Source: Candidatus Aminicenantes bacterium (GTDB lineage Bacteria > Acidobacteriota > Aminicenantia > Aminicenantales > UBA4085). From it: a DNA stretch of 33,738 nt. Each line of letters opens with the position of its first letter. The stretch's first letter is position 1. The position numbers and the translations under genes were made by a program. Below, one piece after another: positions 4,554 to 24,077 of the stretch. The stretch spans positions 69,761 through 103,498 of the forward strand of contig JAPKZJ010000011.1 in assembly GCA_026393855.1 (NCBI GenBank), given 5' to 3'. The notes under the pieces were generated by a model. The model was not told the DNA's origin. It saw only the letters and a program-made list of their open reading frames with translations, and did not search any database.

Positions 4554-5894
4554 TTACTTCTTGGGCTTGACCTGGATGTCCTTGAGGCCCGGCTTCCTCT
4601 CGCATTCCTTGCGGAAGTCCTGCTCGCGCTGCGAGTTCTCGTAGGCGGGCGACTGGAAGCGGTAGGTGAAGCGGGTGTGCTCGTCGTATTTGCCCTCGAG
4701 GATGGCGATGACGTCCTCGATGTTGACCCGCTCCTCGTCGGTCGGAATGACGAAGACCTTAACCTTGGAGTCGGCAGCCGAAATCTCGGTCTCGGCGTTG
4801 CGGGTCTTGGCCAGGGCGTTCTTGGCCTTGTCCAGCTTGATGCCCATGAACTCCAGGCCCTCGAGCGCTTTCTCGCGGATGAGATCCGACATCTCGCCGA
4901 CCCCGGCCGTGAAGACGATGGCGTCCGCGCCGCCGATCGCGGCGGCGTAGGCGCCGATGTACTTCTTGACCCGGTAGGCCTCGACGTCCACGGCCAATTG
5001 GGCCCGGGCGTCGCCCGCCTCGGCCGCCACCTGGATGTCGCGGCGGTCGGTGTACTTGCCGGTAATGCCCAGGACGCCCGACTTCTTGTTCAGGATGTCA
5101 TTCATCTTGCCCGGGGCGATGCCTTCCTTCTCCATGACCATCAGATCGATGGCTGCGTCGTGGTCGCCGGACCGGGTGCCCATGACCAGGCCCTCGAGCG
5201 GGGTCAGGCCCATCGAGGTGTCGTAGGAGACGCCGTTCTTGATGGCGTTGGCCGAGACGCCGTTGCCGATGTGGAGGCAGACCAGATTGGTCTTAAAAGG
5301 GTCCTTGCCCAGCAGCAGCGCGGCCCGCTTGGCCACATAGAGAAACGACGTGCCGTGGAAGCCGTAGCGGCGCACGCCGTACTTCTCATACCACTCGTAG
5401 GGCAGGGCGTACATGTAAACGTGGGGCGGCATGGTCTGGTGCCAGGCCGTGTCCATGATGGCCACGTGGGGGATGGACGGCAGGACGTCCATGGCCGCCT
5501 CGATGCCCAGGACGTTAGGCGGGTTGTGCAGGGGGGCCAGGCCGTACAGGCTCTTGAAGGTCTCGATGGTTTCCTTGGTGATGAGGGCCGACTTGGTGAA
5601 CTTCTCGCCGCCGTGGACGACCCGGTGGCCGACGGCCGAAATCTCCTTGAGGTCGGAGACCACCCCGATCTTGGGGTCGAGCAGGGTGTCGATGATCAGC
5701 TTGATGGCGTCTTTGTGGTTGCCGCACTCGTGGTCGAACTTGATCGGCTCGCGGCCCAGGCCGGCCTGGTTGATGTAGCTCTTGCCGATGCCGACCCGCT
5801 CGACCACTCCGGTGGCCAGGGTTTCTTTTTTAGTGTAGTCGTAGAGGCGATATTTGACGGACGAGCTTCCGCAGTTCAGGGACAGGACTTGCAT
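4554..5894 (-). CDS. ackA: Acetate kinase
   Basis: Converts acetyl phosphate and ADP to acetate and ATP (reversible); cytoplasmic, ASKHA fold. It begins VLSLNCGSSSVKY, with the conserved Asn at residue 7, and has the family landmarks GHRVVHGG, VAIMDTAWHQTMP, the YGFHGTS loop, CLHIGNG with the catalytic-site His, GTRSGD with the transition-state Arg, and GGADAIVFTAGVGE. At 446 aa it is longer than the usual ~400: the canonical end falls near residue 402 (IAILEGK) and about 44 charged residues follow. AAGGAG lies 6 nt before the ATG. It follows pta by 39 nt on the same strand, so the two form the acetyl-CoA to acetate, ATP-yielding pair. Confidence 0.97.
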   Translation of the reverse strand: MQVLSLNCGSSSVKYRLYDYTKKETLATGVVERVGIGKSYINQAGLGREPIKFDHECGNHKDAIKLIIDTLLDPKIGVVSDLKEISAVGHRVVHGGEKFTKSALITKETIETFKSLYGLAPLHNPPNVLGIEAAMDVLPSIPHVAIMDTAWHQTMPPHVYMYALPYEWYEKYGVRRYGFHGTSFLYVAKRAALLLGKDPFKTNLVCLHIGNGVSANAIKNGVSYDTSMGLTPLEGLVMGTRSGDHDAAIDLMVMEKEGIAPGKMNDILNKKSGVLGITGKYTDRRDIQVAAEAGDARAQLAVDVEAYRVKKYIGAYAAAIGGADAIVFTAGVGEMSDLIREKALEGLEFMGIKLDKAKNALAKTRNAETEISAADSKVKVFVIPTDEERVNIEDVIAILEGKYDEHTRFTYRFQSPAYENSQREQDFRKECERKPGLKDIQVKPKK

Positions 5895-5933
5895 GGCGTT
5901 CTCCTTGGCTTCTGTTCTAGAAAGACCCCGTCC

Positions 5934-6932
5934 TCACAGGCCGGCGGCCTGGAGCGAGGTGATGGCGACTAAATGGACGATGTCGTCCACTGAGCAGCCG
6001 CGGGACAGGTCGTTGACCGGCTTGGCGATGCCCTGCAGGATGGGCCCGATGGCCTGGGCCTTGGCCAGCCGCTCGACCAGCTTGTAGGCGATGTTGCCGG
6101 ACTGCAGGTCCGGGAAGACCAGGACGTTGGCCTGGCCGGCGATGGGCGAGTTGGGGGCCTTGGACTTGCCGATCTTCGGGATGATGGCCGCATCGGCTTG
6201 CATCTCGCCGTCGATCTTGAGCCCGGGTGCCATTTCCTTGGCCAGGGCCGTGGCGCGCTTCACCTTCTCCACCATCTCATGCTGGGCCGAACCGTAAGTG
6301 GAGAACGACAGCATGGCCACCCGCGGCTCCATGCCGCCGAGAACCCGGGCCGTCTCGGCCGAGGCGATGGCGATCTGGGCCAGCTCGGCGTCCGTGGGGT
6401 TGGGCATGACGGCGCAGTCGGCGAAGACGAACTTGCCCTGGTCGCCGTACTCGCAGTCGGGGACGATCATGATGAACGAGCTGGAAACGATGTTGATCCC
6501 CGGCTTGGTCTTGATGATCTGCAGGGCCGGCCGGATGGTGTCGCCGGTCGAGTGGAGGGCGCCGGAGACGAGCCCGTCGGCTTCGCCCTTGTGAACCATC
6601 ATCGTGCCGTAGAAGACGGTGTCGGTCATGAGCTTGCGGGCCTGTTCGACGGTCACGCCCTTGGCCTTGCGGGCCTCGTAGTAAGCCTGGACGTATTCCT
6701 CGAACTTGGGCGAGGTGGCGGGATCGACCGAGGGGACGCCGGAAACATCGACGCCCTGTTCCTTGGCCACCGCTTCGATCTTCTCGCGGTTGCCGACCAG
6801 GACGATCTGGGCCAGCTTCTCGTGCAGGATCTGGACGGCCGCCTTGACGGTGCGGGGCTCTTCGCCCTCCGGCAGGACGATCCGCTTGGGGTTGGCTTTG
6901 GCCTTCGCCTTAAGGTTCTCGAGCAATGTCAT
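5934..6932 (-). CDS. pta: Phosphate acetyltransferase, short form
   Basis: Transfers the acetyl group of acetyl-CoA to phosphate, giving acetyl phosphate for AckA. The start at 6932 ([12 protein letters not shown]) is chosen because GAGGAG precedes it by 8 nt; the open frame runs further upstream without a ribosome site. The resulting 332 aa equals the single-domain Pta type, without the long N-terminal domains of enteric Pta. Family features include [12 protein letters not shown] at the N terminus, [59 protein letters not shown], and [17 protein letters not shown] near the C terminus. It is the first gene of the pta-ackA pair and is divergent from the sugar transporter gene at 7104. Confidence 0.96.
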
Positions 6933-7064
6933 AAGTGCTTCTCCTCGACCAAAAACGATCCCCCGAGGATGATTCGAATTCGGTCTATTTCTTAGAAAAT
7001 CAAGGATTTGAAGGCGTATTTTCGCTTTCCGGGGGGGGAAAGTCAAGTTCCAGCCCGGGATGCG

Positions 7065-9384: not shown

Positions 9385-11391
9385 TTACCTTTGGATAGAC
9401 ACGGCCGGCGATGCGGGCCCGTATACCCCGCTCCGGGTCCGATAAGCGATTCTGTATTCGGCTTTGCCGTGCGCCGGCGGGTCGGCGTCCACGACTTCAC
9501 CGCCCCGCGAGACCGCGGACAGGATCACCCAATCCTTCTCGGCCGCGAGCTTCCTCTCCAAGACCGCTTCCAGGCCTTGCGGCGCCGGTGCGAACAGGAT
9601 CCTGACGAACGGGCTCGGTTTGAGGATGAGATCGGCCCTGGGCGCGGCCGGGGCCGGAATAGGCGGCGGCCCGATCCGGACCCAGACGGCAGCCGACGGA
9701 TCGCTGCGATTGCCGTTGGGGCCGATGGCCACGACCCGGTACCAGTATTCCGCCCCGGGCTCGACAAACGGATCGGTGGAATCCCGGGCCGCGGCGGGGA
9801 GGGGACGGCCCAGGACAACCCCAATTTCGCGCGGATCGCCGCTGCGCAGGACGACAAATTGGGCCGACCTGGACTCGGGTTGGCCCGGCCGGAACCGGAC
9901 GACGGCCTTGCCGCCGCCGCCGTCGCCCGAAAGGATTTCGGGCGCGGGCGGCAGGGAGCGATCGGGGACCACGACTTCAACCGTTGCGCTCGGCGGACTC
10001 TCCTGGTTGTCCAGGGCGATGGCCCGTACTCGGTAGCTCCACGTCGCCGGGCCTTCCGAGCCGCCGTAGTCGTCGTAGATCGTTTCGGCGGCGATATGGT
10101 CGTTCAAGCGCACCCAGTCTCCATTTTTGTCTTTCCGCTCGACGAGGTAACCAGCCAGGATAGAGCCGGACGTCCCTTTCCAATTCAAGCGGATTCGGGT
10201 CCGCTCGAGCTCCGCCGTCAGACCCGCGGGGCGGGCCGGAGGGCTCGCGCTTTTTGGGGACGCGGAAACGACCATGGATCGCGGGCCCTCCCGGTGATTC
10301 GCTCCGAGAACCTGGATTTGATAGAAATAGCTCAGGCCGCCCTTGACGTCGGCGTCCTCGTAGCGCGTGTTTCCGGCAGACAGACCGTCCGGCAAAAGGG
10401 AAGTAAAGGGCCCCGCGGGCGTCAGCCCGCGCCAAACCAAGATCTTTCCCGGCCGCGCCTGGGCCGGAGCCTTCCATTCCAGGACATTGCGGCCTTGTCC
10501 GCCGGTCGCCTTGAAATCGACGGGAGGCTCCAGGGCGGCGTGATCGTAATGGTAGACCGAAATCTCGGCCGGACCGCTTCTCCGGCCGAAGGCGTCGGCC
10601 CCGAAGATCCGGTACTCGACCAGCTTCTCCAGGGGCGCCTCCGCGTCGACAAGAACCGGCGCTTCCGGGTTCAGGTTGGCCGCCAGCAGAAGCGGCTTGG
10701 CTTGGATCGCGACGAAGGGGTCGTTTTCGGTTTTCCTCTCGACAAAATAGGCGTAGGTGACCTGGGCGGTGGGGTCCGCGGACCTGGTCCAGAAGAGGCG
10801 GACGCCTTCGGCAGCGGACAAGGCTCTCGCCGCCGCGGGAGCGGGCGGGGGGAGGGTGGGAACGGATGCGTCCACGGCCGGGCTTTGATAAGAGAGGCCG
10901 GTGGGCCTGCCGTCGATGGTTAAGCTGACGACCCGGTAGGACTTTTGCCCGGCCGGGATCTTGTCCAGGGTGGCCGAGAATCCTGCGGCCCGAGCGAAAA
11001 CGGGGTCGGTGACGATGTCGCCTAAGAGGACGAAATAGAATGACTCCCGTTCCTGATCGGACGAAAAAGACGGCAGCCCTTTGGCCAGGGTCTTGAGCAA
11101 GGCGGCCTTTTCCGGCGAAAAAGATGCCGCTGACGGAATATCGCCGGCCCTGACGCGCTTCAGCTCCCGGCCGGACTGGTCAAGGATCTGCCAGCCTCCG
11201 GCCGTCCAGCCGGCCCGGGGGACAGGCCAGAGGAGACGCACGACGCCGCCGCCGTCCGAAACCGCCAGACAGGCGTCGGCTCGGGCGGGGCCCGGTGCCT
11301 GGCCTCCGACGGAGGCGATGAGAAGACCGCCGACAAGGAAGCCAAGGGCGAGGAGAACGATAAGAGCCGGGAGAGGATGGTGTTTTTTCAT
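9385..11391 (-). CDS. Secreted fibronectin type III repeat protein
   Basis: A 668-aa exported protein and last gene of the barrel-PKD-FN3 operon. Residues 1-35 are a signal sequence (KK then a long hydrophobic stretch). A roughly 140-residue N-terminal region of unknown fold follows, then about five fibronectin type III-like beta-sandwich domains, starting near residues 180, 288, 393, 492 and 588. Each has the landmark W in strand B and a YxY motif in strand F (for example NVLEWKAPAQARPGKI, SYFYQIQVLGAN, WSYRVRAIALDNQ, YWYRVVAIGPNG). Such domains are typical spacers or adhesion modules on cell surfaces. No catalytic motif is seen. GAGGAG, overlapping the stop of the PKD gene, lies 7 nt before the ATG, so translation is coupled to the gene upstream. 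Confidence 0.8.
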   Translation of the reverse strand: MKKHHPLPALIVLLALGFLVGGLLIASVGGQAPGPARADACLAVSDGGGVVRLLWPVPRAGWTAGGWQILDQSGRELKRVRAGDIPSAASFSPEKAALLKTLAKGLPSFSSDQERESFYFVLLGDIVTDPVFARAAGFSATLDKIPAGQKSYRVVSLTIDGRPTGLSYQSPAVDASVPTLPPPAPAAARALSAAEGVRLFWTRSADPTAQVTYAYFVERKTENDPFVAIQAKPLLLAANLNPEAPVLVDAEAPLEKLVEYRIFGADAFGRRSGPAEISVYHYDHAALEPPVDFKATGGQGRNVLEWKAPAQARPGKILVWRGLTPAGPFTSLLPDGLSAGNTRYEDADVKGGLSYFYQIQVLGANHREGPRSMVVSASPKSASPPARPAGLTAELERTRIRLNWKGTSGSILAGYLVERKDKNGDWVRLNDHIAAETIYDDYGGSEGPATWSYRVRAIALDNQESPPSATVEVVVPDRSLPPAPEILSGDGGGGKAVVRFRPGQPESRSAQFVVLRSGDPREIGVVLGRPLPAAARDSTDPFVEPGAEYWYRVVAIGPNGNRSDPSAAVWVRIGPPPIPAPAAPRADLILKPSPFVRILFAPAPQGLEAVLERKLAAEKDWVILSAVSRGGEVVDADPPAHGKAEYRIAYRTRSGVYGPASPAVSIQR

Positions 11392-11402
11392 GAAGAATCT
11401 CC

Positions 11403-14400
11403 TCAGAGAGCCAGCCCCACTTCAAGATCGGCCGTTCCCAGGATGCCGAAATCGAGATGCGCCACAGCTTTCATGAACGTCGGATTGGGAACATGGGCGG
11501 AGATCGTCGCCGAAACCTCGAAGCCTTCGCAGATGCCGAAGGCGCATCCCCCCGCACGGACGCCCTGCGACCACGATCCTTCCATGAAGAATGGATCGAT
11601 GCCGATGGCCAGGCCGATATCCATCCAGGACCTGACGTAGCCGTTGAGGAGGCTGGGGCCGACGTTCAACTCGAACTTCTGGGAGCCGCCCATGCGGAGC
11701 CCCTTGCTGTCGAGCTCCAGATAGGAGTCCGCGCCCCCGATCTTGAAGATCGTGGCCTTGATCCGGGGGCCCGCCTTGCGGCCGGCGTAGACGTACCAGC
11801 CTCCCGGGCCGAAGTAGGCTGCGATGGCCGGCTTTGCTTCGGTCCCAAGGTCGAAATTGATCAGCCCGCCGAAAAGGTCCAGCCCGCCCCAGACCTTGGC
11901 GTTGACGGCCTTGTTGTAATAATTGATGTATCCGCCGAAATTGCCCATCTGCATGAGCTGGGCATTCTGGAAACCCATTTCGGCCGAGCCGGCGGTGCTG
12001 AGGATCATGTACCCATCGGCCATGATCGTAAACCGGTCCGTCGTCCCGATTGTCATGACGGCCGCGAAAGCGGCCGTTCCGGCCATGTCGGGAATCGCTT
12101 CGGCCAGGCCGCCGTGCCGGAAGACCTCGGCCGGGAAGTTGTAGGCGAACCCCCCTCCGATGCCGAAAATGGCCAACGGCACCGGGCTTAAGGGAAGGAC
12201 CAGATTGTCATACTTGGCGAAGAGCAGGAAAAAGCTCTTGCCGTTCTGATAGCCGAGGACGAAGGCTCCTTTGACGCTTTCGCAACCGAACATGGCCAGG
12301 TCGATCTCGCCGCCGAAACGCATGTTTTTCCCGGCTTTACCGGCCAGAGCCGCCGCGGCGAACGGGCCGGCGGATCCGGCGGAGCCATCCTCCGCCGGGT
12401 CGGCAGCGTTCGGATCATAATTATAGGATGGCGATATGGCGCTATCGATCTCCTGGCTTCCCAGCGGAAAGACGACCTGGCTCGAGAACGGAGAGTTCCA
12501 GGGCCCTTGGACGGCATGGTCCGCGCCTCCCGAGGAATAGATCCGGTAGTGGATGAGGACGGCGGTCGCCGGAATGTAGCTCGAATCGGGCGAGATCGAG
12601 ATTTCGGTTTCGATGCCGAAGGCCAAACGGTCGGCGCCGCTCGCTGCCGCATCGACTTGGACGCCCTTCAAGGCGGCTGTTGCTCCGCCGAAGACCGCGT
12701 TCCCGGATAGGCCGACATGGGTGCCCCAGGTCGGCCCGTCAAAATAGGTCCGGCCGTCCGTTCCGAAGTTGAGCCCGTTGAGGTGGAAGGCGGCGAACGG
12801 CTTGCCCTCGGCTTCGGTTGCGACCGCGGCATGCCCTCGGGCTCGCCAGCCGCGGGAATCCCTGCCCCAGACCAGGCCGTCCACGGTCATGGTGATGCGG
12901 CCTTTGTCTGCATATTGGATGGTAACGGGATCGGCCGTCAGGCCCGACCAATTCGTTCCGTACCCCTCCGCGTCGCTGATCAGCTGGAGAACGGCATCGC
13001 CTTTCAGGATCGCCTCGATCCAGGGCACGTGGATGGCGCAGAGGAAATACGTCCCTTCGGGCTTGTCTGCGGCGACTTTAAAGTCCAAGTGGTTGAAGGA
13101 AACCGAGGCCTGATCGACTTTGGCCGAGAAGCTCCCGCTTCGGACTGAACCGTATAGCCCTCCGTCCTTGATCCGCCAGGGTTCGAGATTGGTCATGGCC
13201 GGCGACTGCGTCCCGGCCAACCCGAAGGTGGCCGGGGTGACCACCGCCTGATCGAGGTAGACGCCGAGCCAGTCGGGCCCGGCGGCTTCGCCGGACGCGT
13301 TCGACGGCGCGGCTTGGCGGCTGAAGTCCACGGTTACGGCCGGGGCTTCGATTCGGAAGCCGGTCAGGCCGATGGCCGACTGGCTGAGAGACAGCCCCGC
13401 AGCCATCCAATCGCCCTCGGTATTCAAGGAGCCGGCGGCCGATTTCCAGGCCGGCGGCTGCCCGGCATTGCCTGCGGCCGAAGCCAGGAAGGATCCATGC
13501 ACGCCCTTCAGCTCCAGGTCGAAGACTGCCGTCAGGGGGGTCAAGGCCGGGCCGTCAACCTGCCCTTGGAACCGCTTGAGAAGCCCGCTGATGTTGGCCG
13601 GGAAGGCGAGCGTCCCGCCGTTCACGGGAGTCGCGTCCAGGGTCCCATGCAACAGGCGGCCGCTCGATTCTTCGATCGTCCACCCGGCGAAGGCTGTTCC
13701 GGGCGCGAAGGCTTTCTCGACGGCGGCGCCCGCCGTTCGGATATTATAGATCAGGGTTCCCTTGCCGCTGTAAACCTCGCCCTGGAGCTGAATGCTGCTG
13801 CCCAGGTCGGAGATGGTGAATTCGCCCCCGCTGGTCGGAAAGAGGATCCGGCAGAACTTGACGTCCCGGACTTCGTTGACGATGTAGCCTTTTGTTTCGG
13901 ACGTCAGGCGGGTGCCGGGCCCGAGGGCGGAATCCCCGGCCCAGGGGCCGTTCGGGGATGAGGGGGCATCGTAGTTCTTCAGGGCATCGTTGAGGTAGAC
14001 GACGGCCGGCCTTCCCTTGGTCTCGGGGTTCGGCGAAAGGAGCCCGATCTGGGGGACGGCCAGGCCGGCTTTTTCTTCCAGGGCCAGCTTGGCCGCGAAG
14101 GGATCGTATCCCTGGCCTCCGACGGCGGCAGCGGCTTCGCCGGCCGCCGGACCCGAACCGTCCTTCTTTAGCGGCGGCCCGGTTTTTTCAGTCAGGATCG
14201 CCAGCAGGTTCGCGGCGGCCTGGTTGACGCTTCCGCCCAATCCGGCCATGCCGTATTGGGGGGTGAATTCGGCCCGCGCTTGGACGTTGTGTTTGCCCAG
14301 GACGGCCACCGAAAACGGCTGGGACGTGAATACGAAATCATCCACCTCGGCGTCGGCGCAGCCGGTCTTGGCGGCCGGACCGAGATTGGCGCGTTCCTTC

Positions 14401-17381
14401 GAGGCCAGGGTATAGGTCTTATTCTGGACCGGGATGCCATCGACGAGCCAGGTTATTTCGACCGATCCGGCGCCGAAATAGCGGAGACGGGCCCGGGCGA
14501 TGAGGGCTTGGTCGCATTGTACGGCGACGGCATAGATGCCCGCATAGGCGGCGACGAGGTCTTTGCGGATCATGACCCCGTCCTGAGACGAGCCTTTCCC
14601 GGGCAGGATGATGTCGTGGCCGGGGAAATTGAGAATCTCGAGCGAGACGAGATGCACCGGCCCTGCGGCGCATTGGTCGGCGTAGTGGTTGATCAGGATG
14701 TTGGAACAGAAGATCATGTAGGCCCGGGGCAGGGCGGTGGACAGGGGGTTCGGTTCCTGCTCCTGGCCGCTCATGGGCAGAGGGCCTTGGGCGGATTCCA
14801 AAATGATTTTGTAGGGATCGCCCCCGGGCTGCGGCGGCGTCACGGCCTCGCCCAAGGCGGCGTAAAAGTCGGTCTTGGGCGCCTGGATGTCGTCTTCCGA
14901 GAGCTGGAAGACCCGGATGGTATGGGTCCCCTCGGCTTGGTAACGGTGGCTCTGCCACAAGCCCCCGTTCAGAGTGATCTTCTTCTCTTTGGACCAGCTC
15001 CCTCCCCCCTCCATTTTGCCGATGACGGGCACCGCGGACGAGCCGTCGCCCCAATCGATGAACAGGTTCTCGATCTTGACGGAGTTTCCCGCGGCGACGT
15101 GCGAAGCGTAGGGAGATTCCTTGAGGGAGAACGAGCCCTTGAGCTCGATGAGGTCTCCGACGAAATTGGCGTTGGAAGTCGGAGTGTTCGGCCCGGCTTT
15201 CTGATCGCGGTCGCCGGCCGTCTTGTTGACGGCCTGGATAGAGTTCCCGGCTTTCTGGGAACCCGCGCCGCCGCAGGCCAGGCCGGTGAAGGTCGAAGGC
15301 AGGTTGAACAGCCATAGCTCGGAGACGGCTTCCTCCACCGGCTGCTGCAGATAGGTCTTGCCGCCCGGCGACTTGGAATCGCGGACGCATGGGTAGACGC
15401 GAAAGGCCGCGACCTGCCAGGCGATGTCGGCCCCGGCTTTGAGCCCTTCGGCGTACAACGATTCGTAGGTGGGGCCCGATTCGCCGCTCCCACCCCCGAA
15501 CAGGCTGAGGTCAGAGACCTGGGCAAGATTGTTCTGCCCGGTCAGGACGAGGCCGGTATTGACAACCAAGCCGGTGGAAGGCTTAAGGGCTTCGAAAAGC
15601 TCGGCCAACACGTCGCCCGAAAGCCGCAGAGATTCCGGCGATCCCGGCAGCTGCTTTTTGAGGACGAGCTTCTGGCCGGTCGGCTTGAAGAACCGGACTT
15701 CGACGTAATCGTAATAGGCGAACGGCAAATCCCATTTCAGAAGGGTGGCGTCGTCGATGGTCGAAAGATGGAGATACTTGTCGCCGATGGGCGGAGTCTC
15801 CATGACGTCTCCCTTTTGGACCGGGGCGCCCGGCGGCGGATAAGCCCAGAACCAGGGGGACTTGAGCTCGATGGCGAAGCGCGGAATTTCGGAAAGGTCC
15901 GGGCAGACCAGGTTCGGAGTCGCCTCGGGCTTGGGCATGACCGTGACGCCGACCGTGATCTTGCCCGGCCCGTCATTCGTCCCGGTGAGATTGGAGGCCT
16001 TGACGGAACGGTCCCCGAGTTTGGCCGTGGGCGAGACGAAAACCTTGAGCTTGGCCCGGGAGCCGGCCTGGAATTGGGGGGCTTGGACGATGCCGACGCC
16101 GAATCCGAAGGCGAAGGAGGTTCCCTGCGTCAGATTCCGGCCGTCCAGTTGCAGCTCGTATTCTTTGCCGCGCTCCAGCTCGCCCGGCGTGACCGTCTCG
16201 ACGATGGGGCCGGCGTTTGCCGGCCGCCCGGCGACGACCGTGTAGGCGATGGGCGACAAGCTGAAGGCGGTGTGAGGCTGGAGAAACCGAAGCTCCACGG
16301 TATGGGGCCCCGGTGTTGCCGTGGGTAGGCCGGGCAGAGTGCCGGAGCTCATGGTGATCGACTGGGCGAAGGTGAGGGTTTGGCTGTCCGTCCGGAACGG
16401 CTGACCGTCGACGCGCCATTCGACCTGAATGGTCCCCGTTCCCTCGAACTTCAGGTCGGCGAAGGCGGCCAGACCCGTCGTGTTGCGCGGCACCAGCTTC
16501 GAAGTCTTGCCGTCCGCGAACCGGAGAACACCGTAGCTGACGTCGAACCCGGCCAACGGGCCTTGCGAGGGGGCCACGGAAACCGTCGTCGAGCCCGTCC
16601 AAGGGGAATTGCCGCAATTGTCCTGGGCCGTCACTTGGAACGCGCCGGGCTTGGCGTAGATGTGGCTTGCCGCGGTCGTGCCTTGGGCCAGGATGGTTCC
16701 ATCGCCGAAGCTCCACTTGATGCAGCCCGTAGTGAACTGGATGGCCTGGAACTGGACCGCCAGCCCCGTTTTTGGGGCGGCGGGCGAGAATTGGATCTGG
16801 CGCTTGTTCGTCACCGGCACGGACACCGTCGTCGGCGCCGCGCTGCCGCCCTGGTCCCGGGCTTGGACGAGGAAAGCTCCGGCCGCGTTGAACGTATGAG
16901 TCTGGACGGCGCCGCCGTCGTTGATGGTGACGCCGTCGCCGAAGTCCCAATCGACGGTGTTCGGGGTGAGGAAGTTCTGGGCCTGGAAAGTGACCGGCTC
17001 GCCGACGTTGGGCTGGGACGGGGAGAAGACGACGATGCGGTTGGGCGCCGGGACCTGGACGGTGGCTTGTTCAGTTATAGGCGCCGCAGCGCCGCTGGCT
17101 AAGAGGTAAAAATAGGAAACCGACACCGGAAAAGACCCGGAGGAGGCATACGCGTGGGAGGCTGTCAGGACGAGGACCGTGGTCTGAAGGCTGGTCCCAT
17201 CCCCGAAGTTCCAGGTGATCATACGGGACCTGTCGAGATTGGGTTGGGCGGGATTCAGGACGAAGGTCACCGTTTGGCCGATTGCGGGCTGGGCCGGCGA
17301 GAAGGTCACGGTCGCCGCCAGGGGGAGGGCCGAAGCCAGGACCAGGATGAGGATGAGGGTGATCGGTCGAAGCCTTGACAT
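11403..17381 (-). CDS. Giant secreted PKD-domain protein
   Basis: About 1992 aa from the ATG at 17381, which has AAGGAGG 5 nt upstream and is followed by a clear signal peptide (MSRLRPITLILILVLASALP). The frame is open for 182 more codons upstream, but those overlap the barrel gene and are rejected. Three PKD domains open the mature protein, shown by WNFGDG (57-62), WDFGDG (145-150) and WSFGDG (223-228); a further IDWGDGSS lies near 778. Two CARDB/Ig-like units follow the pattern GTGTIQVEWRVDGQPF and GAGSVEITWLVDGIPV. From about residue 1250 to the end there is a long beta-rich, Gly- and aromatic-rich region of unknown family, including FGIGGGFAYNF near 1740. Fourteen cysteines suggest disulfides outside the cytoplasm. 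PKD domains commonly bind carbohydrate or protein on the surface; the C-terminal function is unknown. Confidence 0.85.
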   Translation of the reverse strand: MSRLRPITLILILVLASALPLAATVTFSPAQPAIGQTVTFVLNPAQPNLDRSRMITWNFGDGTSLQTTVLVLTASHAYASSGSFPVSVSYFYLLASGAAAPITEQATVQVPAPNRIVVFSPSQPNVGEPVTFQAQNFLTPNTVDWDFGDGVTINDGGAVQTHTFNAAGAFLVQARDQGGSAAPTTVSVPVTNKRQIQFSPAAPKTGLAVQFQAIQFTTGCIKWSFGDGTILAQGTTAASHIYAKPGAFQVTAQDNCGNSPWTGSTTVSVAPSQGPLAGFDVSYGVLRFADGKTSKLVPRNTTGLAAFADLKFEGTGTIQVEWRVDGQPFRTDSQTLTFAQSITMSSGTLPGLPTATPGPHTVELRFLQPHTAFSLSPIAYTVVAGRPANAGPIVETVTPGELERGKEYELQLDGRNLTQGTSFAFGFGVGIVQAPQFQAGSRAKLKVFVSPTAKLGDRSVKASNLTGTNDGPGKITVGVTVMPKPEATPNLVCPDLSEIPRFAIELKSPWFWAYPPPGAPVQKGDVMETPPIGDKYLHLSTIDDATLLKWDLPFAYYDYVEVRFFKPTGQKLVLKKQLPGSPESLRLSGDVLAELFEALKPSTGLVVNTGLVLTGQNNLAQVSDLSLFGGGSGESGPTYESLYAEGLKAGADIAWQVAAFRVYPCVRDSKSPGGKTYLQQPVEEAVSELWLFNLPSTFTGLACGGAGSQKAGNSIQAVNKTAGDRDQKAGPNTPTSNANFVGDLIELKGSFSLKESPYASHVAAGNSVKIENLFIDWGDGSSAVPVIGKMEGGGSWSKEKKITLNGGLWQSHRYQAEGTHTIRVFQLSEDDIQAPKTDFYAALGEAVTPPQPGGDPYKIILESAQGPLPMSGQEQEPNPLSTALPRAYMIFCSNILINHYADQCAAGPVHLVSLEILNFPGHDIILPGKGSSQDGVMIRKDLVAAYAGIYAVAVQCDQALIARARLRYFGAGSVEITWLVDGIPVQNKTYTLASKERANLGPAAKTGCADAEVDDFVFTSQPFSVAVLGKHNVQARAEFTPQYGMAGLGGSVNQAAANLLAILTEKTGPPLKKDGSGPAAGEAAAAVGGQGYDPFAAKLALEEKAGLAVPQIGLLSPNPETKGRPAVVYLNDALKNYDAPSSPNGPWAGDSALGPGTRLTSETKGYIVNEVRDVKFCRILFPTSGGEFTISDLGSSIQLQGEVYSGKGTLIYNIRTAGAAVEKAFAPGTAFAGWTIEESSGRLLHGTLDATPVNGGTLAFPANISGLLKRFQGQVDGPALTPLTAVFDLELKGVHGSFLASAAGNAGQPPAWKSAAGSLNTEGDWMAAGLSLSQSAIGLTGFRIEAPAVTVDFSRQAAPSNASGEAAGPDWLGVYLDQAVVTPATFGLAGTQSPAMTNLEPWRIKDGGLYGSVRSGSFSAKVDQASVSFNHLDFKVAADKPEGTYFLCAIHVPWIEAILKGDAVLQLISDAEGYGTNWSGLTADPVTIQYADKGRITMTVDGLVWGRDSRGWRARGHAAVATEAEGKPFAAFHLNGLNFGTDGRTYFDGPTWGTHVGLSGNAVFGGATAALKGVQVDAAASGADRLAFGIETEISISPDSSYIPATAVLIHYRIYSSGGADHAVQGPWNSPFSSQVVFPLGSQEIDSAISPSYNYDPNAADPAEDGSAGSAGPFAAAALAGKAGKNMRFGGEIDLAMFGCESVKGAFVLGYQNGKSFFLLFAKYDNLVLPLSPVPLAIFGIGGGFAYNFPAEVFRHGGLAEAIPDMAGTAAFAAVMTIGTTDRFTIMADGYMILSTAGSAEMGFQNAQLMQMGNFGGYINYYNKAVNAKVWGGLDLFGGLINFDLGTEAKPAIAAYFGPGGWYVYAGRKAGPRIKATIFKIGGADSYLELDSKGLRMGGSQKFELNVGPSLLNGYVRSWMDIGLAIGIDPFFMEGSWSQGVRAGGCAFGICEGFEVSATISAHVPNPTFMKAVAHLDFGILGTADLEVGLAL

Positions 17382-17395
17382 GGACGCCTCCTTGC

Positions 17396-19372
17396 CTAGA
17401 ACGAGTACGTCAGCCGGACGGCCGCTCGCCACGCTTCCGTCGTTTGCCCGGACATCTGGGTCCGGATATATTGCGCCCGCAGGGAGACGATGGCGTCGCC
17501 CAGCCGGATCAGAGGACGGAGGTTCAGATTGAGGCCCGTGTCCGCCGAAATGGATTTGACCGTGCCCCCCGCTCCCATCCGGGAGTCGCCGGCGGACCCG
17601 GTGACGTTCCAGGAGAGCCAGCGGCGGATGATCGTCAGATCTCCGTTGAGGGAGGCGAATAGGGATGTCGTTTCCACGCCCGCCCCCGTCTGATCGACCC
17701 GGGAGTAGCTGAGAATCGGAAACAGGGTCAGCCGATCGGGGATTAGGATCTGCAAGCCGGCCATGGCCGAGGTTTGGGACCCTTGCATGGCCGGCGTCAG
17801 AGGACAACGAAGATCCGCCTTCTCCCCCGATGCGGAGACGCGGAGCCAGGAGGCCAGGCCGAGGTCCAGTCCGGCGGACAGTCCGGTCTTCTCCAGGGTC
17901 CCTTCGAAAGCGGGATAGGGATTCCAAGCTCCCGTGGCGAATCGCGCGTCCTGTTTTTCGCTGACATAACCGACCCGAATCGAGGACGAGGCGCCGATCT
18001 GCAGGCTGACGTCGGCCCGCCCCTGGTTCAGGCTCGCGGTGGCCAGATCGGGATCGCTGTCGACGTTGGTTTCTTCGGACCGGAAAGAGCCGCCGACCCG
18101 GACCGGGCCGACGGCCAGGCCTGCGGAAGCGTCGAAGCCCCGGCGATCGTTCTGGAGAAACGGCTGGCCGACGGTGTTGAAGTCCTTGTCGATGGAGCGA
18201 TAGCCGGCCTGGACGTCGAGCGCCCCCTTGTGGAACGTTCCGCGGAGCCGGTAAGCCTGTCCCGGAGTCAGGCTTTCGCCGTCCTCCAGATTGGCGTCGT
18301 AACGTCCGGCGGCAAACTCGGCCTGGAGGTCCAGGCTTTCGCCGAGGAGGCGCGACTCGCCGATGAAAGCCAGGACCTGGCCTTTCCGGCGGTGGAAGAG
18401 AGAGGACGTCCCGACGTTGACGCCGAGGGCGGGATCGTCCTCGCCCGAGACAAAAACGGCTTTCACGGACAGCGCCTTGGCCAGGGTCAGACCCGCCGTC
18501 CCGCCGACGAGCGAGGCGCCGGACTTGGGCCAGCCGAGGCCTTTGAATCCCCGCGCCTGCTGGGTGGCCGAGGTGAAGACGCGGAAAGCGAAGGTCTTGC
18601 CCTCGAAGCCGTACGCGAGGCCGCGGCGGCCGAAGGAGGCGATGGTGAATTCGGATTCGGAGAGGTTCAGATCGCCCATCCGGAAGGAGTGGTTTTTGAC
18701 CGTGGCCGAGAAGCTGAGGTCGGGCAAGTCAAACGGGTCCTCCCCCGCGACGGGTTGATTGGCGTAGGCAAGACGGGCGCCCAGGTCCAGGGCCAGCCCT
18801 TCCTTGCGGTAGCCATACTCCAGCCGGAGATGGTGGGCCTGGTTGAATCCGGAGGGCGTTGCGCCTTCGCCTTCCCTGACGATGAGGCTTTCGGCGCTGC
18901 CGTCGAGATGGAGAGGAAAGGGGTTGGCCGCTCCGGCGCCCTGGGAGGGCGGTGCGGGTGCAGTCGGCGCGACGACGGCGCCTGCGGGCGTCGCGTCGGT
19001 GACCGTGAAAACGGCGCTCGGAGCGCCCTCGGGGAGGTAAAGGATTTTTTCGCCGAGCTTATAGGCCAGGTAATACGCGAGTGACGGCCCGGCCAGGGCC
19101 GCGGTGTCGAGCCGGCCTTCGTAGGTCCGTCCGTCTTTAGACTCCAGAATCAGGCTTTCATAATCTTCCGCGTTCGGAGTCTTCCAGAAAACCATCAGCC
19201 ATTCGAGCCGGGCTTCGCTTTCGACGCGCAGGGCCAGGGGCTCGGTCTTGAGAAAACGCGCCGGCGGCGCATGATGAAGGTCCTCGGCCGGGGGAGATGC
19301 GGCCTGCCCTTGTCCGGATAGGGCGAGGATGGCGGCCACAAAAAAGGTCAGGACGCGAGTGCCAAACTTCAC
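17396..19372 (-). CDS. Ig-like plus outer-membrane beta-barrel protein
   Basis: About 658 aa, first gene of the operon. I use the GTG at 19372 because AAGGGGA lies 5 nt upstream and the product begins with a classical signal peptide (MKFGTRVLTFFVAAILALSG, then QGQA). An ATG at 19399 is possible but has its GA-rich site touching the codon; the still longer frame would begin at the promoter itself. Residues about 30-125 form an Ig-like sandwich (PLALRVESEARLEWLMVFW, PSLAYYLAYKLGEKILYLPEGAP). From about 170 on the protein alternates hydrophobic and polar residues in strand-length pieces (RLEYGYRKEGLALDLGARL, SIRVGYVSEKQ) and ends in TYSF, a C-terminal aromatic like that recognised by the BAM machinery. 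A porin or export barrel is inferred; no TonB box or plug domain was seen. Confidence 0.75.
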   Translation of the reverse strand: MKFGTRVLTFFVAAILALSGQGQAASPPAEDLHHAPPARFLKTEPLALRVESEARLEWLMVFWKTPNAEDYESLILESKDGRTYEGRLDTAALAGPSLAYYLAYKLGEKILYLPEGAPSAVFTVTDATPAGAVVAPTAPAPPSQGAGAANPFPLHLDGSAESLIVREGEGATPSGFNQAHHLRLEYGYRKEGLALDLGARLAYANQPVAGEDPFDLPDLSFSATVKNHSFRMGDLNLSESEFTIASFGRRGLAYGFEGKTFAFRVFTSATQQARGFKGLGWPKSGASLVGGTAGLTLAKALSVKAVFVSGEDDPALGVNVGTSSLFHRRKGQVLAFIGESRLLGESLDLQAEFAAGRYDANLEDGESLTPGQAYRLRGTFHKGALDVQAGYRSIDKDFNTVGQPFLQNDRRGFDASAGLAVGPVRVGGSFRSEETNVDSDPDLATASLNQGRADVSLQIGASSSIRVGYVSEKQDARFATGAWNPYPAFEGTLEKTGLSAGLDLGLASWLRVSASGEKADLRCPLTPAMQGSQTSAMAGLQILIPDRLTLFPILSYSRVDQTGAGVETTSLFASLNGDLTIIRRWLSWNVTGSAGDSRMGAGGTVKSISADTGLNLNLRPLIRLGDAIVSLRAQYIRTQMSGQTTEAWRAAVRLTYSF

Positions 19373-19377
19373 GGGAA

Positions 19378-19384
19378 TCCCCTT
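19378..19384 (-). promoter_or_regulatory. Ribosome binding site selecting the GTG start at 19372
   Basis: On the minus strand AAGGGGA is followed by TTCCC and then GTG. It lies about 50 nt downstream of the predicted transcript start and decides the N terminus of the barrel protein. Confidence 0.55.
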
Positions 19385-19442
19385 GAACGTCGAGCTCATT
19401 CCTCTCGTTGAAAGGCCTTTACGCGGCTTCGTCGATGGGCAA

Positions 19443-19471
19443 ACTGTATGCTGGGATTGGGGCCTTGTCAA
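19443..19471 (-). promoter_or_regulatory. Sigma70-type promoter of the barrel-PKD-FN3 operon
   Basis: On the minus strand a perfect TTGACA (19466-19471) is followed by 17 nt and TACAGT (19443-19448, 4 of 6). Transcription should begin near 19436, leaving a leader of about 65 nt before the GTG. The -35 region continues as TTGACAAGGCCCC, very like the promoter of the TonB-like gene at 29165. Confidence 0.7.
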
Positions 19472-19511: not shown

Positions 19512-20195
19512 TTATCCGACGTCTTTTCTGAGCAGCGCGATGCGGGCCGCGTGCAGGCCGCGGAAGAGGGCCGCTTCGCGGATGACTGTCCACCCGGCCG
19601 CCTCCGCTTCGCGGGCGAAGCCGTCGCCCTCGATCATCCGGATCTTGCGGGGGCTCTTCTTGCGCAGGCGGCGCAGGGCCCGCTGGGCCTTGTGCAGGGC
19701 GTTGGAGCGGTAATAGGAAATGACGGCCCAGCCGGCCGAGACGCGGGCGAACTCCGTGAGGATGACTTTTCGATCGGCCGGGTCGTGGATGTGGTGCAGG
19801 AGGCGCATGCAAAAGACCGCGCCGAAAACGCCCGGGCGGAAGGGCAGGCCGTTCTTGGCGTCGGCGGCGACACCCGGCCTGCCGCTCGTCTCGTCCGCCC
19901 GCCGGACCATCTCGAAGGACAGGTCGGCGTTGACGGGGCGGGCGCCGATCTCGATGAGAAGCGGCGCGAAGCGGCCGTACCCGCAGGGCAGATCCAGGAC
20001 GAGCCCCGTCGATGCCGCGGACCCGGCGGCCTTGAAGAGCCGCCGGGTGATACGGCGCTCGCGGGCCTGGACCATCCGCTGGTCCCAGCTTTTGTAGCGG
20101 CGCCGTTCGTAATCGCGCACGCCCTCGGTCGTGAACGGCGACTTGGCCGTGCCGACCGGTCCCGCCGCCGGCCCTGGGCCGGGGTCAGGGCTCAA
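19512..20195 (-). CDS. SAM-dependent class I methyltransferase
   Basis: About 227 aa if a TTG at 20195 is used. That TTG overlaps the TGA of the isomerase gene and has GGAG about 8 nt upstream; a GTG at 20120 (MRDYERRRYKSWDQ) is the alternative, and no ATG is available near the N terminus. Motif I is VLDLPCGYGRFAPLL, which binds S-adenosylmethionine; VNADLSFEMVRRA follows as motif II, and CMRLLHHIHDP as the post-motif segment typical of Methyltransf_11 proteins. The N-terminal RRRYKSWDQRMVQARERRI is basic and helical and shares character with LPS-core kinase-linked methyltransferases. The substrate is unknown. It is the last gene of the arabinose operon by overlap, which may be only transcriptional convenience. 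Confidence 0.8.
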   Translation of the reverse strand: MSPDPGPGPAAGPVGTAKSPFTTEGVRDYERRRYKSWDQRMVQARERRITRRLFKAAGSAASTGLVLDLPCGYGRFAPLLIEIGARPVNADLSFEMVRRADETSGRPGVAADAKNGLPFRPGVFGAVFCMRLLHHIHDPADRKVILTEFARVSAGWAVISYYRSNALHKAQRALRRLRKKSPRKIRMIEGDGFAREAEAAGWTVIREAALFRGLHAARIALLRKDVG

Positions 20196-21670
20196 AACGG
20201 GTTCTCCGTCGGGTAAGGCCGGCTCGCCGGCCGGTTGACGCCGATGTCGTCGACACCCAGCATCCGAACCGCCGCATAAAGGGCCTTGCCCGCGGGCGCG
20301 AAGGCTACGGCGGTGTGGTGGGGGAAGCGCTTCTCGATCAGGACATGGCGATAGAAGCGGCCCATCTCCTTGACGGCGATGACACCGATGCCGCCGAACG
20401 ACTTCGGGTCGATGTCCAGGACTTCGCCCTCGGCCATGTAGGAGCGGAGGACGGCGTCGGCCGTCGCCTGGAGCCGGAAGATCGTCACATCGCCGACCTT
20501 GATCCGGCCTTCGAGTGTGCCCCGGGTGATGTCGGGGTCCTTCCCTGGCTCTATCAGCCGGTGCATGATGAGCTGGTGCTTGAGCCCGCCCTCGATCAGG
20601 CAGGACGAGGACGTGTTGCCGCAGTGGAAGCCCATGAACAGGTCGGTGGGCTTGTAGCCGTGGAGGGCCTTGCCGGCCGCCTTGTACATGTCCATGGGGA
20701 CCGTGTTGTTGATGTCGAGCAGGGTGGCCGGGCGTTCGGTGGCGCAGACGGCCATGTACTCGCTCAAGGCGCCGTAGATATCCACTTCGCAGGCCACGGG
20801 GATGCCGCGGCCGGCCAGACGCGAGTTGACGTAGCAGGGCACGAAGCCGAAATACTTCTCGAAAGCCGGCCAGCACTTGTCGGCGAAGACGCCGTATTTC
20901 GAGGCGCCCAGGTTGGCCTTCATGAAATGGGTCAGGGCGACTTCGAACTGGGCCAGCTTCTCGAGCAAATCGGGATAAGCGTTGCCGGCCCCCAGCTCCT
21001 TGGCCATGTCCTTGGCCACGGCCTTGACCTCGCGCGCCCCCTTGGCCTGGAGGAAGGCGTCGTAAAGGTCGAGCTCGGAGTTCTCCATGACCTCGACCCC
21101 GAGGTCGTAGAGCGGCTTGATGGGGGCGTTGCAAGCCAGGAAATCCTGCGGCCGGGGGCCGAAGGCGAAGACCTTGAGGCTCTTGAGCCCCAGCTGAATC
21201 CGGGCGACCGGCAGGAAGTCCGCGATCATCCCGGCGATCTCGTCCGCCGTTCCGACCGGGTATTCGGGTATGTAGGGGTGCAGCTTGCGCAGCCCGATGT
21301 TGTAGGAGGCGTTGAGCATGCCGCAGTAGGCGTCGCCCCGGCCGTCGATAAGGTCCTTGCCCGTCTCCTCGGCCGCGGCCGCGAACATCACCGGCCCGCC
21401 GAAGCGCTGGGCCAGGATGGTGGTAGGGCCCTCGGGCCCGAAGTTGCCCAGGAAGAGGACGAGGGCGTTGACGCCGGCGGCCTTCAGCTTGTCCAGGGCC
21501 TCCAGGGCGTGGGCCTCGTTCTCGACGATGGTCGGGATCTCGGCGATGCGGATGCCCTTCTCGCGGCAGGCGGCGGCGAGCTTGATTCGGCGGCGGCAGG
21601 ACAGCTCGATCGGGAAGCAGTCGCGGCTCACGGCCACGAGGCCCAGCTTGACGGCGGGGATGTTGATCAT
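20192..21670 (-). CDS. L-fucose/L-arabinose isomerase-family sugar isomerase
   Basis: A 492-aa cytoplasmic enzyme of the FucI/AraA structural superfamily (COG2407 type), closer in its motifs to FucI than to classical AraA. The metal and active-site region shows CEVDIYGALSEY with E295 and D297, LLDINNTVP, and GFHCGNTSS with H349; KRFPHHTAVAF near the C terminus offers further His. N-terminal segments such as ALVLFLGNFGPEG match the substrate-binding Rossmann-like domain. These enzymes interconvert aldoses and ketoses with Mn2+. With ribulokinase and ribulose-5-phosphate epimerase in the same operon, L-arabinose to L-ribulose is the likely reaction, so this gene would stand in for araA; L-fucose or D-arabinose cannot be excluded. 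AAGGAG lies 5 nt before the ATG. Confidence 0.87.
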   Translation of the reverse strand: MINIPAVKLGLVAVSRDCFPIELSCRRRIKLAAACREKGIRIAEIPTIVENEAHALEALDKLKAAGVNALVLFLGNFGPEGPTTILAQRFGGPVMFAAAAEETGKDLIDGRGDAYCGMLNASYNIGLRKLHPYIPEYPVGTADEIAGMIADFLPVARIQLGLKSLKVFAFGPRPQDFLACNAPIKPLYDLGVEVMENSELDLYDAFLQAKGAREVKAVAKDMAKELGAGNAYPDLLEKLAQFEVALTHFMKANLGASKYGVFADKCWPAFEKYFGFVPCYVNSRLAGRGIPVACEVDIYGALSEYMAVCATERPATLLDINNTVPMDMYKAAGKALHGYKPTDLFMGFHCGNTSSSCLIEGGLKHQLIMHRLIEPGKDPDITRGTLEGRIKVGDVTIFRLQATADAVLRSYMAEGEVLDIDPKSFGGIGVIAVKEMGRFYRHVLIEKRFPHHTAVAFAPAGKALYAAVRMLGVDDIGVNRPASRPYPTENPF

Positions 21671-21679
21671 GATCGCTCC

Positions 21680-22369
21680 TTACTTTTGTCCGTAATAGGC
21701 CCGGGGGCCGTGCTTGCGTTGATGGTGTTTGCGAAGAAGATACTCGGGCAGAGCGGCGACACGGGGCTCGACTTGCAGAGTCGCCAGGGCCATGGCGGCC
21801 ACGAGTTCTAGGGCGACTGCGTTATGAACCGCTTCTTCCGGGGTTCGGCCCCAAACGAACGGTCCGTGGCCGGCGACGAGCACGGCCGGCATGGCCGCCG
21901 GGTCGAGCTTGGCGAAGCGTTCGATGATGACCTTCCCGGTTTCGATCTCGTAATCGCCTTCGACTTCGGCCCGGCGCAGAAGCCGGGTCACCGGGACCGG
22001 CCCCGCGAAATGATCGGCGTGGGTCGTGCCCAGACAGGGGATGGACCGACGGGCCTGGGCGAAGGCCGTGGCCGCGGGGCTGTGGGCGTGGACGAGGCCG
22101 CCGATCCAGGGAAAAGCTCGGTAGAGGACCAGATGCGTCGGCGTGTCCGAAGAGGGGCGAAGCTTGCCCTCGACGATCTTCCCGTCCCGGTCGACGAGAA
22201 CGATGTCCTCGGCCTTCATTGTTTCGTAGCCGACGCCGCTGGGCTTGATGGCCAGCAAGCCGCGCTTGCGGTCGATGCCGCTGGCGTTGCCGAAAGTCAG
22301 GACGACCAAGCCGTGATCGACGAGGTCCCGATTGGCCTGCAGGACGCTTGCCTTGAGCTTGTCCAGCAT
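21680..22369 (-). CDS. araD: L-ribulose-5-phosphate 4-epimerase
   Basis: A 229-aa class II aldolase-like enzyme that converts L-ribulose 5-phosphate to D-xylulose 5-phosphate, the last step of L-arabinose catabolism. It carries the full family set: GNASG (27-31) and KPSG (42-45) for phosphate binding, SSDTPTH (73-79), zinc ligands H94 and H96 in VHAHS, TTHADHF, and GHGPFVWG with the third zinc His. The length is that of E. coli AraD (231). The ATG comes one base after the stop of araB (TGACATG), and the gene ends 9 nt before the isomerase gene, so the three are one transcript. Fuculose aldolases share the fold, but the SSDTPTH form and the neighbours favour AraD. Confidence 0.95.
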   Translation of the reverse strand: MLDKLKASVLQANRDLVDHGLVVLTFGNASGIDRKRGLLAIKPSGVGYETMKAEDIVLVDRDGKIVEGKLRPSSDTPTHLVLYRAFPWIGGLVHAHSPAATAFAQARRSIPCLGTTHADHFAGPVPVTRLLRRAEVEGDYEIETGKVIIERFAKLDPAAMPAVLVAGHGPFVWGRTPEEAVHNAVALELVAAMALATLQVEPRVAALPEYLLRKHHQRKHGPRAYYGQK

Positions 22370-22370
22370 G

Positions 22371-24077
22371 TCATTTCTCGGCCAGGACGCGGTCCCGGAT
22401 GGCCAGCAGGCTTTTCATGAGGGGATAGAGGGCGCCGGGGGCGTCTTTGATGCCGAAGGCGTCGTGGAGCCTGCGGTAGAGGGGATAGATCTCAGCGTAG
22501 ATTTTGCGGCGGGCTGGATCGGGTTTGTAGGATCGGGCCTTGACGCCGCAAATCGCCGCTTGCGCCGAGGCGAAGTCCTTGAAACCGCCCGCCGCGGGTC
22601 CCGCCGCCACGGCGCCGGCGATGGCCGAGCCCAGGGCGCAGGTTTGGGCCGAACGGGCGACCTTCATCTCCAGCCCGATCACATCGGCATAGATCTGCAT
22701 GACCAGGGGATTCTTTTCGGCGATGCCGCCGCAGTTGACGACCCGGTCGATCCCGACGCCATATTCCCGAAGCCTCTCGATGATGGTCCGGGCGCCGAAT
22801 GCGGTCGCCTCGATAAGAGCCCGGTAGATCTCGGCCGGCTGGGTGTGGAGCGTCTGCCCGACGAGCAGCCCGGTCAGGCGCTGGTCGACCAGGATCGTCC
22901 GGTTGCCGTTGTTCCAGTCTAAAGCCAGCAAGCCGGATTGCCCGGGCCTGATTCGGGTGGCTTCCTTGGTCAGCGCCTCGTGTGAGCCTAGACGGGGGCC
23001 GCCCGGTTGGATGCAGTCCACGAACCAGTTGAAGATGTCCCCGACGGCCGATTGCCCGGCCTCCAGCCCGAAGGCGCCCGGCAGGACCGAGCCGTCAACG
23101 ATGCCGCACAGCCCGGGAATGTCGGCCAGCGGCTTGTCGCTCGGCCAGACCGCGATGTCGCAAGTGCTCGTGCCGACGATCTTGACCAGCGTTCCGGGGA
23201 CGATGCCCGAGCCGATGGCGCCCAGGTGGGCGTCGAAGGCGCCGACCGCAACGGGCGTCTCTTCCGGCAGGCCTAGGGCCGCGGCCCAGGCCGGCGACAG
23301 CCCGCCGGCGACGACGTCAGCCGTGTAGGTTTTATCGAAAAGCCGGGCTCGAAGCGCCCCTAACTTTGGGTCGAGCTTGGTCAGGAAGTCCGCCGCCGGC
23401 AAGCCGCCCCAGGCCGCGTTGAATAGGGCCTTGTGGCCCGCGGCGCAACGGCTCCGCTTGATGCGGTCGGGCCGGGTGTCGCCGACCAGGGCGGCCGTGA
23501 TCCAGTCGCAGCATTCCACCCAGCTTGCGGCGGCGACGAAAACGGCCGGGTCGACCCGCAGGCAATGAAGAATCTTGCTGAAAAACCATTCCGAGGAGTA
23601 GGTGCCGCCGCACTTGGCCAGATACTCGGGATGCTCCCGGGCGGCCAGGGCGGTGAACTCGGCCGCTTCGGCGAACCCGGTGTGATCCTTCCACAGCCAG
23701 GCCATGGCGTTGGGGTTGCGGGAAAACTCTTTTTTGAAGCAGAGGGGCAAGCCGTCTTTGTCCACCGGGATGGGTGTGGAGCCGGTCGTGTCGACACCGA
23801 TGCCGATGATCCGGGCGGGCTTGAAAGAGCGGTCCTTTTTACGGGCCTGGGCCAGGGTCCGCCGGACGACGACCTCGATCCCGTGCAGGTAGTCGGCCGG
23901 ATGCTGGCGGGCCAGGTCCGGATTGCGGGCGTCCAGGATGATGCCGGCCCTCCCGCTGGGGTAGGGGAAGACCGAGGTCGCGACCTCGCGTCCATTGCGG
24001 ATATCGACGATCAGGGCCCGGACGGAATTCGTCCCGAAATCGAGCCCGAGGGCAAAGGCGGCGGCCGGCTTGGGCAT
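22371..24077 (-). CDS. araB: Ribulokinase
   Basis: A 568-aa FGGY-family kinase that phosphorylates L-ribulose at the expense of ATP; E. coli AraB has 566 aa. It starts with GLDFGTNSVRALIVD (phosphate-1 loop), then PADYLHG typical of ribulokinase, GIGVDTTGSTPIPVD, WKDHT, and later GAFDAHLGAIGSGI and MLPGA-like GSVLPGAFGLEAGQSAVGDIFNW, ending with NCGGIAEKNPLVMQIYADV and GSAIAGAVAAG. AGGAGAG lies 4 nt before the ATG. It is the first gene of the araB-araD-isomerase-methyltransferase operon. No AraC or AraR regulator is in the window, so regulation is not visible here. Confidence 0.95.
   Translation of the reverse strand: MPKPAAAFALGLDFGTNSVRALIVDIRNGREVATSVFPYPSGRAGIILDARNPDLARQHPADYLHGIEVVVRRTLAQARKKDRSFKPARIIGIGVDTTGSTPIPVDKDGLPLCFKKEFSRNPNAMAWLWKDHTGFAEAAEFTALAAREHPEYLAKCGGTYSSEWFFSKILHCLRVDPAVFVAAASWVECCDWITAALVGDTRPDRIKRSRCAAGHKALFNAAWGGLPAADFLTKLDPKLGALRARLFDKTYTADVVAGGLSPAWAAALGLPEETPVAVGAFDAHLGAIGSGIVPGTLVKIVGTSTCDIAVWPSDKPLADIPGLCGIVDGSVLPGAFGLEAGQSAVGDIFNWFVDCIQPGGPRLGSHEALTKEATRIRPGQSGLLALDWNNGNRTILVDQRLTGLLVGQTLHTQPAEIYRALIEATAFGARTIIERLREYGVGIDRVVNCGGIAEKNPLVMQIYADVIGLEMKVARSAQTCALGSAIAGAVAAGPAAGGFKDFASAQAAICGVKARSYKPDPARRKIYAEIYPLYRRLHDAFGIKDAPGALYPLMKSLLAIRDRVLAEK

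Follow-up and report, generated by a model that had tools for sequence, protein, structure and literature searches.

A putative outer-membrane barrel and anchor-domain module in Acidobacteriota, with a giant-client version

What might a bacterium build from three consecutive genes for putatively exported proteins, one of them a giant, none of which resembles an enzyme? The question is raised by the window analyzed here, a stretch of 33,738 nucleotides (G000:C11:69761-103498) from a Candidatus Aminicenantes MAG of 3.68 Mb, for which a first-pass annotation had proposed a dedicated assembly of an Ig-domain barrel (A), a giant PKD protein (B) and an FN3 protein (C). Little is known about how proteins are displayed on the surface of Acidobacteriota, whose members rank among the most common bacteria in soil and the subsurface.

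The A-B-C operon and its products

The three minus-strand open reading frames were found as claimed (Table 1), with gaps of 14 nt between A and B and 11 nt between B and C by ORF coordinates. Each gene also has the ribosome site ascribed to it: AGGAGG in front of B, GAGGAG in front of C and, for A, an AAGGGG that is better spaced with respect to an alternative GTG start at 19372. The N-termini of all three proteins are signal-peptide-like as judged by eye, in agreement with the annotation. Position 19471, which had been quoted as the end of the operon, is not a gene start and falls on the TTG of the promoter, A beginning at either the ATG or the GTG. The promoter itself does contain the perfect TTGACA reported for it, but the match is suggestive only, because shuffles of the 10.5-kb region yield about 1.1 sites of this quality. 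Since the end of a methyltransferase-type gene, also on the minus strand, lies at 19512, transcription may also read through into the operon from upstream. As had been annotated, a Pfam scan revealed no enzyme family in A, B or C, and the three proteins contain no CXXCH heme motif. Elsewhere in the window, a sugar catabolism cluster (fucose-isomerase-like, class II aldolase and FGGY kinase genes, 20192-24077) lies just upstream of the operon, and an acetate kinase gene adjoins a phosphate acetyl/butyryl transferase gene (4554-7046).

Table 1. Coordinates of the operon and of the domains encoded in it, as positions in the window
Feature	Position	Strand	Description and basis
Gene A	17396..19399	-	667 aa from ATG 19399; signal peptide, Ig-like domain, Pro/Ala linker, predicted barrel
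Ig-like N-terminal domain of A	18995..19279	-	residues 41-135; AlphaFold strands
Barrel of A	17399..18913	-	residues 163-667; about 26 strands, C-terminal Phe; AlphaFold model
Gene B	11403..17381	-	giant protein, 1992 aa
Three PKD domains of B	16572..17312	-	residues about 24-270; Pfam PF18911 1.6e-21, PF00801 3.9e-21
Anchor domain of B	16236..16577	-	residues 269-382; alignment A4 (34 sequences), E 2.3e-36; common to all barrel-linked partner proteins
IPT/TIG-like domain of B	15942..16208	-	Qn_am_d_aIII weak in B; TIG over cut-off in the homologous G368 giant
Giant extension of B	11403..15944	-	residues 480-1992; own family without Pfam match; A5/A6 homologs in 11/396 genomes
Weak second anchor-like segment in the extension	14382..14534	-	E 6.1e-5
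Gene C	9385..11391	-	FN3-type protein, 668 aa; putative companion of giant B
Shine-Dalgarno AGGAGG of gene B	17387..17392	-	sequence; 5 nt before ATG
Shine-Dalgarno GAGGAG of gene C	11399..11404	-	7 nt before ATG; overlaps B stop
Sigma-70-like promoter TTGACA-17-TACAGT	19443..19471	-	10/12 consensus positions; consensus match only

An AlphaFold model of A, moderate in quality (pLDDT 77.7, pTM 0.60) and built from a shallow alignment of 13 homologs, begins with a signal helix and an Ig-like domain and continues through a disordered linker into about 26 long strands, bearing out, as a prediction, the annotated barrel with an Ig domain. Foldseek matched this model to outer-membrane barrels in the PDB, the best TM-score by query length being 0.48 for MtrB (6r2q_B) and those of other large barrels 0.2-0.4, and we infer that A is located in the outer membrane. 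PDB sequence searches with the barrel returned nothing significant, and A reached the cut-off of no Pfam or NCBIfam family. Weak Pfam matches to Porin_4 were present in two of 13 barrel-family members (best 4.8e-7) and absent from A itself, while SlpA_C matched family members down to 4e-6 and A with 17.4 bits, where the cut-off is 35.

The giant B is a PKD protein of the annotated length, in which the PKD domains precede a domain of ~112 aa for which we introduce the name anchor domain. Neither this domain nor the ~1500-aa extension matched a named Pfam or NCBIfam family over cut-off, so that with the barrel the locus holds three such protein families. Likewise, PDB sequence searches with the anchor domain and with the giant returned nothing significant, profile comparison revealed no internal repeats within the giant, and tblastn of the giant against plasmids gave no match. 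An AlphaFold model of its C-terminal 912 aa (pLDDT 61, pTM 0.44) was too poor for reading a fold, and the Foldseek matches obtained with it were set aside because their TM-scores were very low (at most about 0.2). C itself lies below all Pfam cut-offs; its ortholog P0007 exceeds that of fn3, in keeping with the annotation of C as an FN3-type protein.

Linkage of barrel and anchor-domain genes across the phylum

We searched for A in 99 relatives and in 396 genomes of the phylum and read 33 strong barrel loci in context, using unfiltered ORF scans for all conclusions on gene neighbors. A gene encoding the anchor domain directly followed the barrel gene in 30/30 readable loci of this main set, in most of them about 10 nt downstream, and usually encoded one to seven PKD motifs ahead of the anchor; the three other strong loci (L047, L048 and L113) stop at contig ends, with PKD repeats still visible in two. 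Four divergent barrels (L187, L188, L189 and L210) are likewise followed by an anchor gene, for a total of 34/34 readable loci. The anchor domain, searched independently with alignment A4, was strong in 34 of the 396 genomes, including all 32 strong-barrel genomes, and in the two further genomes diverged barrels adjoin the anchor gene. This co-occurrence has a hypergeometric probability of 4e-45 over the 396 genomes, many of which are close relatives and not independent. In named records, relatives of the barrel belong to Candidatus Aminicenantes and other Acidobacteriota MAGs, and a contig search there retrieved six Aminicenantes/Acidobacteriota MAG contigs, apparently identical to contigs already covered.

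In other families, a single polypeptide of about 1100-1640 aa contains both the anchor and, after it, the barrel (G115, G129, G201, two genes of G310, G340 and probably G138). In profile comparison, the fused family matched both the anchor profile (95.8%, E 7e-9) and, over the whole barrel, the stand-alone barrel profile (98.8%, E 5.5e-17). Fusions of this kind usually signify contact between the separate proteins, and these natural ones indicate which parts should touch.

These data bear first on whether an ordinary porin merely stands, by chance, beside fast-evolving PKD and FN3 proteins, a view in keeping with the promiscuity of these common domains and with the weak Porin_4 and SlpA_C matches of some barrels. 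The adjacency in 34/34 loci across diverged families, the tight spacing, the fusions and the co-occurrence of full-length B and C largely refute this explanation and leave it very improbable. None of the 13 barrels scanned reached a porin family cut-off, and every readable one of the barrel loci is linked to an anchor gene.

A second possibility is that the barrel is an export pore of a two-partner-like or autotransporter-like kind, with A carrying B and its fellow anchor proteins across the outer membrane and the anchor as secretion signal. Linkage of the barrel to large Sec-exported clients, its predicted large size and the fused proteins of G115, G310 and other genomes, in which client-like N-terminal domains precede a C-terminal barrel, would all suit such a pore, but no TpsB, autotransporter, usher or other family was found over cut-off, the anchor is situated mid-protein rather than at a terminus, and the barrel has about 26 strands compared to 12-16 in known type V barrels. 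We consider export by A unlikely on balance.

The order of the fused domains, anchor before barrel, would also fit a periplasmic position of the anchor, and with it a third possibility: that the barrel forms a transmembrane sheath or a transport conduit that the anchor plugs, B and C lying mostly in the periplasm, in the manner of MtrB enclosing MtrA or of LptD-LptE. The 26 strands and the best PDB TM-score, that of MtrB, point in the same direction, but a TM-score of 0.48 denotes fold-level likeness at best, A, B and C lack heme motifs, no transport partner genes adjoin the operon, and arrays of PKD, FN3 and IPT domains are more usual outside the cell. A plugged conduit seems to us improbable.

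Several variations on the arrangement were observed. The genome from which the window derives has a second pair of a barrel and a short 3-PKD/anchor protein (L052, G000:C64, 949-4570), after which comes a small protein (207-905), IPT-like by eye. In some genomes anchor-PKD genes flank the barrel on both sides or occur in tandem (L111 2527-6176, L109, L112), the tandem copies of L111 having identical anchor domains. G340 carries a fused anchor-barrel gene and, directly after it, a stand-alone A-family barrel cut by the contig end (L178 6267-12611), and in G086 a weak relative of the barrel lies in a cluster of small exported proteins that includes no anchor gene (L057 6061-8388). Some barrel-bearing genomes also encode extra anchor-PKD proteins that are not linked to the barrel gene (L190, L192), and these look like further clients.

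Conservation of the giant and its companion

The genes A, B and C recur in the same order in a second genus of the same family as well as in further families of the phylum. The giant extension is present in 11 of the 396 genomes, drawn from several families, and is strong in nine, all nine of which have full-length C; full-length C was found in ten genomes, with only G217 (64% complete) lacking B. C lies directly downstream of B in G000, G003, G115, G129, G201, G209 (two copies), G340, G368, G378, G204 and G457, the sole B locus without it there being the weak one of G363. A barrel stands upstream of B-C in six genomes (G000, G003, G115, G129, G201 and G368), in fused form in G115, G129 and G201, and the contig ends of G340 are consistent with the same arrangement. 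From these data we regard the trio as an old gene set and not as a local accident. The expectation that the three genes would be found together in relatives was thus largely borne out, except that G204 and G457, whose B is divergent, have no recognizable barrel adjoining the giant and C.

The G204 locus (L209 4683-11912, L211 958-2487) encodes a giant of 2409 aa and C, with an upstream protein, P0010, that has no barrel match. In G368 (L114 2271-10000 with L182), a barrel, a short PKD-anchor protein, the giant and C apparently form one row across two contigs, and the giant of G129 is split into two ORFs with a 4-nt overlap (L176 4555-9254), reflecting a frameshift, a sequencing error or a real split.

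The dedicated gene set proposed in the first-pass annotation is therefore supported by gene order, co-occurrence and linkage, but the unit has to be redrawn: the wider unit is a two-gene module of barrel and anchor-domain protein that extends across the phylum, and the trio is its giant-client version. Because the trio, and more widely the pair, recurs across the phylum, it has the appearance of a genuine cell-envelope system that has yet to be named, and the module provides a concrete, testable candidate for surface display in Acidobacteriota.

Proposed function and comparison with known systems

The reading that we favor, with confidence somewhat above even, is a conserved outer-membrane seat-and-client system, with the barrel as seat, the anchor-domain proteins as clients, B as a giant client and C as its companion. 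The 26-strand barrel A would sit in the outer membrane, partner proteins with the anchor domain would be exported by Sec, and the anchor domain would dock on or in the barrel, a contact suggested by linkage and fusion. The barrel would thereby keep the PKD/IPT arms and the 1500-aa head of B in position, most likely on the outside of the cell, and C would serve the giant head as its dedicated companion and probably bind to it. The linkage of the genes, their co-occurrence across the phylum and the natural fusions of anchor and barrel were observed directly and support this reading; the giant and C of G204 and G457, which have no recognizable adjoining barrel, count against it, as do the anchor-first order of the fused proteins, the moderate model of the barrel and the poor one of the giant. 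A bolder claim, that an undescribed Acidobacteriota system uses the 26-strand barrel both to export giant surface proteins and to hold them via the anchor domain, independently of known secretion systems, is one we put forward tentatively, as a possibility well short of likely.

The first-pass annotation knew of no named secretion or adhesion system with this gene set, and the barrel indeed did not reach the cut-off of any family known from secretion or gliding; a search of the literature on Acidobacteria and Aminicenantes for PKD/FN3 surface systems found nothing relevant. Known barrels nevertheless offer partial parallels. Like type V systems (two-partner and autotransporter), the module pairs a barrel with a large partner and has fused versions, but the barrel of A differs in size and sequence, and Pfam and NCBIfam revealed no POTRA, 16-strand TpsB barrel or TPS domain in A or client. 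Chaperone-usher barrels such as FimD and PapC are large like A and match it structurally with TM-scores of 0.25-0.39, whereas no chaperone or pilin genes adjoin A-B-C and no family match was found. SlpA, the Deinococcus S-layer/outer-membrane barrel, shows weak barrel similarity and the top Foldseek E-value, but with a TM-score of only about 0.2-0.3, and the N-terminus of A is Ig-like, unlike the tether of SlpA. MtrB is a 26-strand barrel that holds MtrA (PMC7198977), and A resembles MtrB/PioB in strand number (26, from a moderate model), in its best structural match and in being a barrel with a partner protein. A gave no match to the MtrB/PioB family profile in Pfam or NCBIfam, A-B-C differ in lacking a cytochrome or heme motif, with no multiheme cytochrome among the scanned neighbor genes, and the partner is of PKD/IPT type.

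A parallel in gene logic comes from the type IX secretion systems of Bacteroidota, in which SprF is thought to hold SprB and a conserved client domain is bound by its barrel (PMC9143113), with cognate shuttles, multiple barrel-client pairs and orphan clients (PMC12618676). Here, too, the gene of a predicted outer-membrane barrel adjoins that of a large, probably surface, protein, as with PorP/SprF and the type B CTD adhesins SprB and PG1035, and putative orphan clients lie elsewhere, which could suggest an ordinary type IX pair of a PorP/SprF protein (A) and a type B CTD adhesin (B) (PMC9143113, PMC12618676). However, the PorP/SprF profile matched none of 13 barrels in NCBIfam and nothing in the Pfam scan, and no Bac_Flav_CTERM or type B CTD was detected by NCBIfam in 14 B-family proteins, two of which gave a weak Por_Secre_tail match (0.013). 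A genome search with SprA (TIGR04189) and the type B CTD (TIGR04131) gave no match, and its controls also gave no signal. PorP-like barrels are FadL-type with 14 strands (PMC9143113), as opposed to about 26 in A, the barrel gene comes first in our locus, and the anchor domain of B lies mid-protein and not at the C-terminus. Membership of A-B in the PorP/SprF-SprB family was rejected because of the missing profile match, the strand number and the absence of a C-terminal CTD, and an ordinary type IX pair is correspondingly hard to credit. By analogy, the best reading is that the barrel-client pair would act like SprF-SprB without belonging to that family; if the proposed docking is true, Acidobacteriota would have solved independently, in a second way, the problem that SprF-SprB solves in Bacteroidota.
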